In this document: positions 54,020 to 55,461 of the stretch, one piece after another
Layout: every line of letters begins with the position of its first letter
Numbering within the stretch: position 1 is the first letter of the stretch
From: Mesotoga prima MesG1.Ag.4.2
GTDB lineage: Bacteria; Thermotogota; Thermotogae; Petrotogales; Kosmotogaceae
Direction of reading: 5' to 3'
Assembly: GCF_000147715.2 (NCBI RefSeq)
Contig: NC_017934.1
Location: forward strand, 2,108,001-2,172,000
DNA: 64,000 bases
The notes under the pieces: model-generated
The model's database searches: none
Seen by the model: the letters and a program-made list of their open reading frames with translations, nothing else
What the model was told of the DNA's origin: nothing
Translations under genes and position numbers: made by a program

Positions 54020-54534
54020 TCAAGGTCATCTCCCTTCACAACTCAATTATTACACCTATTCTTCTTCAATACAATTTCTGTGTTGAGAAAGCTCGTCTGT
54101 CAAGAGGAGATGTGTTTTTTTGGCAAACATGAGATTGAGCATTTGGCCAAATAAAGGGGAGATCATGATCGCGGGTAGTAAGTAGGCGGTAGGAATAGGG
54201 ACAAAACAGATTCGTCGAGGAGAACTGTTATTCAAGAGAGAGGATTTGTTCCTCGTTCTTGGTCAAAACGCGACGAGGTTCGAGGTTGGAGTGTGCCAAG
54301 AAGGCGAAGAAGTAAACTTCAAGCCATGCTTAATTGAAGATGAGGGAGGGCCCCACGAAGCCGCCATGCAGGTGGAGGCTTCAAACCGCCGTAAGCTGCT
54401 GTGGTAAAGAGCCATGGTAGTGAACGTTACGGGAAAAGGCGGGACAGTGATCCCGTCAGGTGAGTACCAGAGGAGACAAATATCTCTTGTCGATTTTGCA
54501 CTGGATCTTATTCTCTGACTTTTTTCTTTTCAGC
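54020..54534. other. Gene-free region with RNA-like secondary structure
   Basis: No supported gene. Between about 54285 and 54480 stems crowd together on one strand: GCC-AAGAA-GGC, GAAG-TAAA-CTTC, a 10-base stem GAAGCCGCCA with TGGAGGCTTC (54356-54381, one mismatch), CGGGA-CAGTGA-TCCCG. It has the feel of a structured RNA or an intron remnant, but no family could be confirmed and no reverse transcriptase is present. Confidence 0.35.
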
Positions 54535-54670: not shown

Positions 54671-54731
54671 TCTATAACTGATCTGCCATAGCAGAGAAAC
54701 GGCCATCTCTTTCCACAGACTCTACAATAAA

Positions 54732-54773
54732 AACTGAAGACCCTTTGGAAAGTTATGGAACGGGTCTTCAGTT
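54732..54773 (-). terminator. Terminator of the microprotein operon
   Basis: AACTGAAGACCC (54732-54743) and GGGTCTTCAGTT (54762-54773) form a perfect 12-base stem with an 18-base loop. On the minus strand it is followed by TTTTATTG. It lies 56 bases beyond the last microprotein stop. Confidence 0.8.
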
Positions 54774-54828
54774 ATTTGGTATCCAGTATTCCTTTGGATT
54801 CTATCAATTTGAACGCCTCTCCTTCTTT

Positions 54829-54927
54829 TCAGTTGTGGATAGAGCTCATGTATCTCTTCAGTGCATCTGTCTTTATCTTGTCAATGTATCTATCCACATC
54901 CGCTAAATTCTCTCTTCTCTTTCTCAT
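54829..54927 (-). CDS. Microprotein E of five-gene array (32 aa)
   Basis: ATG 54927 has AGGGGG seven bases upstream. The product starts MRKRRENLADVDRYIDKIKT and continues as one amphipathic helix to a short tail ending SSIHN. It shares the (A/E)-(V/I)-D-R-(Y/I/L)-I pattern with C and D and the basic N terminus with all five. A short TTG-started frame of 11 codons behind an AAGGAG could be a sixth, decayed member. Confidence 0.75.
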   Translation of the reverse strand: MRKRRENLADVDRYIDKIKTDALKRYMSSIHN

Positions 54928-54951
54928 GATCTCACCCCCTTCTCTTCGGAG

Positions 54952-55044
54952 TTAGAACCTGGGATTCATCATCAAGGAACTGAAAGCACTCTCTCTTACC
55001 TGTAAAACTATCCTGTCTACTTCCTTCATGTTTCTCTTCTTCAT
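54952..55044 (-). CDS. Microprotein D of five-gene array (30 aa)
   Basis: ATG 55044 has GGAGG seven bases upstream (gaGGAGGaaagaag). The product starts MKKRNMKEVDRIVLQVRESA and ends SSLMMNPRF. The end is nearly the same as that of C (SNLLINPRF), and the preceding D-R-I...R-E-S block also aligns, so C and D are duplicates. Confidence 0.78.
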   Translation of the reverse strand: MKKRNMKEVDRIVLQVRESAFSSLMMNPRF

Positions 55045-55066
55045 CTTCTTTCCTCCTCTTCTCCAA

Positions 55067-55168
55067 TCAAAATCTCGGATTGATAAGTAAGTTACTGTAA
55101 ACAGTCTCTCTTTCACTCTCGATCAATCTGTCTATCGCCTTGAAGTCTTTCTTCTCCCTGAATCTCAT
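55067..55168 (-). CDS. Microprotein C of five-gene array (33 aa)
   Basis: ATG 55168 has AGGAG eight bases upstream. The product starts MRFREKKDFKAIDRLIESER and ends SNLLINPRF. It aligns with D over most of its length and shares RERETYSN-type sequence with B (ERETVYSN). Soluble, highly charged, predicted helix with a conserved C-terminal NPRF. Confidence 0.78.
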   Translation of the reverse strand: MRFREKKDFKAIDRLIESERETVYSNLLINPRF

Positions 55169-55184
55169 TCAAACCACTCCTCTC

Positions 55185-55283
55185 TTATCTGATGTTCATT
55201 ACTCTTGATCTGATTGAATCTTCAATGATGTTTGAGTAAGTCTCCCTTTCTCTGTAATGAACCTTTCTTTCTCTTCCTCTCAT
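55185..55283 (-). CDS. Microprotein B of five-gene array (32 aa)
   Basis: ATG 55283 has GGAGG eight bases upstream, located right behind the stop of A. The product starts MRGRERKVHYRERETYSNII and ends RSRVMNIR. The RERETYSN segment matches ERETVYSN in C. Net charge strongly positive. Confidence 0.75.
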   Translation of the reverse strand: MRGRERKVHYRERETYSNIIEDSIRSRVMNIR

Positions 55284-55297
55284 CTTCCTCACCTCCT

Positions 55298-55390
55298 TCA
55301 TAGGTAATGTGGGAAGGACTCTCCTGCGAGTTTCTCTTTGAACTTTCTGATTGCTCTTTCTATGGACGCTGGATCTTTCACTTTTCTCAT
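55298..55390 (-). CDS. Microprotein A of five-gene array (30 aa)
   Basis: ATG 55390 has AGGAGG seven bases upstream, in a 42-base leader behind the promoter at 55432-55461. The product starts MRKVKDPASIERAIRKFKEK and ends FPHYL. It keeps the basic start and the single amphipathic helix but is the most diverged of the five. Confidence 0.72.
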   Translation of the reverse strand: MRKVKDPASIERAIRKFKEKLAGESFPHYL

Positions 55391-55431
55391 TCTCACACCT
55401 CCTTTTTGTTAATCTCTGCTTCGACATTCAT

Positions 55432-55461
55432 AATATATCACATAAAATAATAAAAAGTCAA
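55432..55461 (-). promoter_or_regulatory. Promoter of the microprotein operon
   Basis: On the minus strand TTGACT (55461-55456), an 18-base AT-rich spacer ending TGTGA, then TATATT (55437-55432) with TG-a in front, an extended -10. RNA would begin near 55425. Confidence 0.7.

Follow-up and report, generated by a model that had tools for sequence, protein, structure and literature searches.

The window analysed here, a 64,000-nt stretch of the Mesotoga prima MesG1.Ag.4.2 genome (NC_017934.1, positions 2,108,001 to 2,172,000 of the forward strand), carries on its minus strand five short ORFs that follow one another with gaps of 14–24 nt, all of them located where a sequence-only reading of this DNA had placed them. 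In the direction of transcription, these are ORF A (55298..55390; 30 aa, MRKVKDPASIERAIRKFKEKLAGESFPHYL), ORF B (55185..55283; 32 aa, MRGRERKVHYRERETYSNIIEDSIRSRVMNIR), ORF C (55067..55168; 33 aa, MRFREKKDFKAIDRLIESERETVYSNLLINPRF), ORF D (54952..55044; 30 aa, MKKRNMKEVDRIVLQVRESAFSSLMMNPRF), and ORF E (54829..54927; 32 aa, MRKRRENLADVDRYIDKIKTDALKRYMSSIHN). Each of the five ATGs is preceded at 7–8 nt by a Shine-Dalgarno (SD) site, namely AAGGAGG (A), AAGGAGG (B), AGAGGAG (C), GAGGAGG (D), and AAGGGGG (E). The core GGAGG is thus present in A, B, and D, with GGAG only in C and GGGGG in E. Upstream of A lies the proposed near-consensus promoter (TTGACT-18-TATATT with an extended TG; 55432..55461, minus strand), which agrees with the consensus at 10 of 12 positions and is followed by a 5′ leader (55391..55431, minus strand) with a predicted transcription start at ~55425. 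The unit is closed 3′ of E by an intrinsic terminator (54729..54776, minus strand), the arms of which, AACTGAAGACCC and GGGTCTTCAGTT, form the perfect 12-pair stem described earlier (54773–54732) around an 18-nt loop, followed by a T-run. Across four related genomes, identity amounted to 80% from the −35 element to the leader, compared to ~54% just upstream, and it reached 91% in the terminator region (four genomes). The loop core TTCCATAACTTTC is kept in the genus. The same loop (window 54732–54773) is near-complementary to GGAAAGAGATGG, located immediately 3′ of the terminator.

The sequence-only reading had also held that such regularity does not arise by chance. Counting SD-preceded ORFs of 25–45 codons as members of a chain, the real region contains a chain of five, compared to at most two in any of 3000 shuffles that kept its dinucleotide composition, and a chain of five occurs once in the window, which bears this argument out. 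Two further frames were considered and rejected: an 11-codon ORF with a TTG start 3′ of E, which is without conservation, and an 80-codon frame containing B (55185–55427), the upstream part of which overlaps A out of frame and has a codon-position pattern that fits A. A leader-peptide or attenuation role was rejected because the unit stops at its own terminator and the transcript contains no downstream gene, and a type I toxin was rejected because the peptides have no membrane segment.

Comparison with related genomes indicates that all five ORFs are almost certainly protein-coding. When the window was aligned with genomes G004, G003, G002, and G007, codon positions 1 and 2 were 83% identical and position 3 was 61% identical, with flanks at about 50%; in-frame homologues and codon periodicity are both present. 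The dN/dS ratios (Nei-Gojobori, all pairs) of 0.125 for A (about 0.13 within the genus), 0.12 for C, 0.24 for D, and 0.26 for E lie well under 1, as had been expected of genuine genes. ORF B was judged by codon-position identity (76/80/59%), which follows the same pattern as the whole array. By these measures, purifying selection acts on all five proteins, and the comparative evidence points, as originally suggested, to translated and paralogous products of a single transcription unit. Individual ORFs have decayed in some genomes: C carries an in-frame TAG in a second array copy of the window's genome, B is frameshifted in G004 and has an early stop in G008, and E of G003 has ATT where ATG is expected, so that no single ORF is indispensable everywhere. 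An ATT at the position of the expected ATG, after a good SD site, was seen both in this E (L004) and in the second ORF of G010 (L102). These could possibly be AUU starts, for which infC is a precedent, or cases of start loss.

The five products are related to differing degrees, which agrees with the earlier proposal. Smith-Waterman z scores against column shuffles were 20 for C–D and 11 for D–E, making these two relationships clear and C the nearest paralogue of D, followed by 6.2 for A–E, 5.5 for C–E, and 4.7 for B–C. All remaining pairs scored at most 2.4, and A–B (−0.7) is without direct likeness. The less similar members are joined by these weaker scores or via relatives: A is linked through E and type K2 (A–K2 z 6.6), and B, an HY-motif type comparable to the third ORF of sister-genus arrays, is linked through the sister-genus HY type K3 (11.4). 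By homology, A is the weakest member both within the array and against the arrays of other genera, while E is, of the five, most like relatives in other families. A block RERETYSN said to be shared by B and C was confirmed in part: it can be aligned with an insertion and is not identical, as C reads SERETVYSN.

With 30–33 residues, 33–44% of them charged, the peptides show a pI of 9.5–10.9, a GRAVY of −0.5 to −1.4, a hydrophobic moment of 0.38–0.59, and a negative mean helical hydrophobicity, and they contain no Trp. They are soluble and amphipathic, as described before, and not membrane peptides; their helical fold is predicted. For ORF C, AF2 places a helix at residues 9–29 with loose ends (mean pLDDT 78, ~93 at residues 11–20), although this is based on a shallow alignment, and a lone helix is what such a prediction returns by default. 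The C-terminal residue is F or L in many members (PRF, HYRF, GAFYRF, GNFLAL). The description of the peptides as basic holds for the arrays and not for the whole family, since the members from the neighbouring-family genus g6 (45–46 codons) are acidic with a pI of 4.9. Charge is therefore not a defining trait.

The arrays recur with variable ORF number, in line with what had been anticipated, with five ORFs in the own genus and three, two, or a single one in other genera. Peptide profiles identified three-ORF arrays in G016, G011, and G015 (twice), two ORFs at two loci in G012, and at least two array loci in G014. In the arrays of other genera, TTGAC(A/T) is located ~17–18 nt 5′ of TATATT or a close variant, the ATGAATGTC motif 3′ of the −10 element is retained in most, and a hairpin terminator is found where the array was read to its end. 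A wider profile additionally yielded single microprotein genes of 32–46 codons in the own genus, in other genera, and in seven genomes of g6, as well as a tandem pair in a third family; most singles have an SD site and a promoter or terminator. Short-profile matches tentatively connect the singles to the arrays. The first two singles gave E values of 0.06–0.07 with the array-only profile, with long matches to the model, and are free-standing genes with an SD site and a terminator. For the best types, z scores of arrays against singles or neighbouring-family genes ranged from 9.6 to 13.5 (10.8 for E against neighbouring-family genes, 13.5 for HY type K3 against singles), values that are biased upward because these genes were found by profile.

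In other families of the class, no convincing member was found; matches there lay inside long ORFs and were taken as chance. Matches at G003:C24, G024, and G058 were inspected and rejected. A profile scan of viral contigs gave no relative, and the sole match of the HY-motif profile against genome contigs was the record corresponding to G016. Scans against Pfam, NCBIfam, PHROGs, and PADLOC returned nothing above cut-off, profile searches against the PDB and solved structures returned nothing meaningful, and the part of the literature covered contained no description of the family. Judged by these comparisons, the sequence family appears to be new and to belong to a Kosmotogaceae-like lineage, with neighbouring families contributing outliers. 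Its members are smaller than the usual gene-caller threshold, and none was caught by family libraries. At L082 7400–8030 (G011), several tiny SD-preceded ORFs, one of them with a family-like helix, are located 5′ of an ABC transporter operon; whether they are related to the family is uncertain.

A DNA search covering 40 relatives revealed a second array in the window's own genome (G000; 889664–890425, 94% identical) and matches in eight of nine other same-genus genomes, several of which sit at the end of a contig, as a repeat would. At six of these same-genus loci the array is present wholly or for the most part, and the order of the orthologues is kept; the others are fragments. The same two loci are recognisable in G000, G005, and G009, all of which have the second copy. 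One locus adjoins a methyltransferase gene, the other an AraC-type regulator and a response regulator. The two copies of G009 are 96.8% identical over 221 nt, whereas either G000 copy is only ~84% identical to G009. Because copies within a genome are closer to each other than orthologous arrays are between species, the arrays have been homogenised, not diversified. These identities would best be explained by a duplication older than the divergence of the species and by gene conversion thereafter; that arrays were duplicated in parallel into both loci is less likely. The earlier suggestion that tandem expansion with divergence reflects selection for variety is at best partly right, as this homogenisation speaks against it and purifying selection acts separately on the orthologues of every ORF. 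The divergence sits between the ORFs within an array and is old. Dosage by duplication is supported by the sequence comparison. A few hundred bases 3′ of each array copy, we observed group II intron D1-D4 matches (window 54342–54461, plus strand; L016 10945–11064, plus strand), and beyond the match at copy 2 lies a reverse transcriptase in two frames.

In the window's family, most single genes lie beside genes for two ArsR-family proteins, each of ~355 residues and with its HTH at the C-terminus. By profile, this pair occurs in 14 genomes of the window's family, with a single beside it in 13 of the 14, and outside the family it was not found bar one weak partial match. The palindrome GTTTGA-N6-TC(A/T/G)AAC or a one-base variant is located between −66 and −77 relative to the start codon in all 13 singles' promoters scanned, and in none of the eight arrays scanned. 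From this arrangement we infer that the ArsR pair probably controls the singles. Genomes G010 and G014, which belong to one genus, contain arrays in the absence of the pair, which is consequently not a general partner of the arrays. In the window's genome, a convergent pair of singles with palindromic operators is found beside two ArsR-family regulator genes (G000:C1:2015458–2015817; L106). The g6 relatives (L095-L100, L088) carry a promoter palindrome TTCGGATACCGAA or a near variant, unlike the operator of the window's family.

Our best explanation, to which we assign a probability of roughly 40%, is that the arrays encode cytoplasmic docking helices that tune one or more protein partners, with the dose set by the number of copies and with five distinct specificities. 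A strong sigma-A-type promoter would drive one transcript ending at the intrinsic terminator, from which five paralogous microproteins would be translated separately. Each peptide would be for the most part a single amphipathic helix whose N-terminus is basic and which bears a hydrophobic stripe (I/V-x3-I/V-x2-I...); in most members, a short tail with F or L as its last residue would follow. The peptides would stay in the cytoplasm, where they may dock, by their hydrophobic face and C-terminal tail, on at least one protein partner; alternatively, A–E may dock on each other as coiled coils. Such docking would tune a regulator or complex, the divergence of the five ORFs would provide related but distinct specificities, and duplicated arrays together with a strong promoter would provide dose. 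Docking is the uncertain step of this explanation.

Tandem operons of leaderless small helical peptides are known from other bacteria. Multi-peptide leaderless bacteriocins of the aureocin A70 type consist of tandem genes for unmodified ~30-residue peptides under one promoter, and the phenol-soluble modulin alpha operon of staphylococci encodes tandem paralogous leaderless single-helix peptides that are membrane-active. The arrays resemble these arrangements but fail their defining features: compared to the aureocin A70 type (cf. PMC11580447) they are highly charged, soluble, and chromosomal across genera, and in contrast to the modulins they have a negative helical hydrophobicity and no linked exporter. 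A secreted multi-peptide or signalling system, although it would have the same anatomy of tandem, unprocessed, amphipathic ~30-residue peptides under one promoter, is thus very improbable in our view. Between a third and nearly half of the residues are charged, Trp is absent, and the arrays are inherited at fixed loci. Tandem unprocessed small peptides are the one trait of leaderless bacteriocins that we found; neither a membrane-active composition nor a conserved transporter or immunity gene accompanies them, and the neighbours differ between loci (nagA, a methyltransferase, an AraC-type regulator, a response regulator). The peptide signals considered by the sequence-only reading likewise find no backing in any secretion feature or in a conserved exporter next to the arrays. 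We regard it as just as improbable that function resides in the RNA itself, or that the transcript serves two functions, with the peptides being secondary. The retained terminator loop core and a conserved C-rich 3′ element of the related singles would fit such a role, but the codon-position signal is clear, purifying selection acts on the protein, and the window's array has neither the C-rich element nor an Rfam match of note. In Thermotoga maritima, ORFs of <40 aa were described within putative ncRNAs, with no peptide evidence reported (PMC3636130). These share the phylum and the short transcripts with the arrays, yet no convincing homologue from that lineage turned up in our profile searches.

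An accessory role at the ribosome or on RNA, in which the peptides bind the small subunit or mRNA and fill in for the missing bS21, is unlikely. It is suggested by the high pI of the array members, by weak matches of A orthologues to bS21 (best Pfam E 0.0028, three of six members), and by the lack of bS21 in the 41 genomes searched, consistent with its published absence from Thermotogae (PMC9976891, PMC10931766). Within the bS21 profile (PF01165, TIGR00030), ORF A aligns with the N-terminal helix (positions 3–23), but it is without the C-terminal half and, at 15 bits, stays under the curated PF01165 cut-off of 27. Matches came from only half of the A orthologues, and from neither B–E nor the types of other genera. 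bS21 is also missing from other members of the class, yet these have no arrays; furthermore, the neighbouring-family branch is acidic, and codon usage does not set the array apart, a proxy for expression that is uninformative in the window's genome, where ribosomal-protein and background usage hardly differ. Unlikely, too, is the possibility that the microproteins are intracellular ligands or co-regulators of the ArsR regulators, the singles forming the cognate circuit and the arrays being amplified relatives. The adjacency of singles and pair, the shared operator, and the resemblance of array type K3 to the singles would all agree with it. However, the operator is absent from the arrays, two genomes have arrays without the pair, the neighbouring-family genes have a different palindrome and different neighbours, and the adjacency may reflect regulators controlling the gene and nothing more. 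A more far-reaching version, a new class of cytoplasmic helical effectors in which the operator-controlled singles are cognate ligands of a dedicated ArsR pair and the constitutive arrays supply a graded mixture of helices that docks on regulators or the ribosome without secretion, is improbable; if true, it would constitute a lineage-wide, previously unseen intracellular peptide code.

Reading raw sequence has led to a testable protein family, here with five diverged, individually conserved proteins on one mRNA. If translated as predicted, they would add several proteins to the cells of a deep-branching phylum, and this natural series of diverged single helices may help to understand how proteins this short acquire and retain a function.

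In the ArsR-linked singles, we additionally observed a conserved C-rich element, approximately CAACCCCCCTTTTCCCCCACGGA, located 3′ of the stop codon and 5′ of the terminator, in 11 genomes from four genera (L106, L089, L092, L108, L114, L115, L094, L104, L103, L116, and L117). This element could base-pair with G-rich SD sites, so that the singles may be dual-function RNAs.
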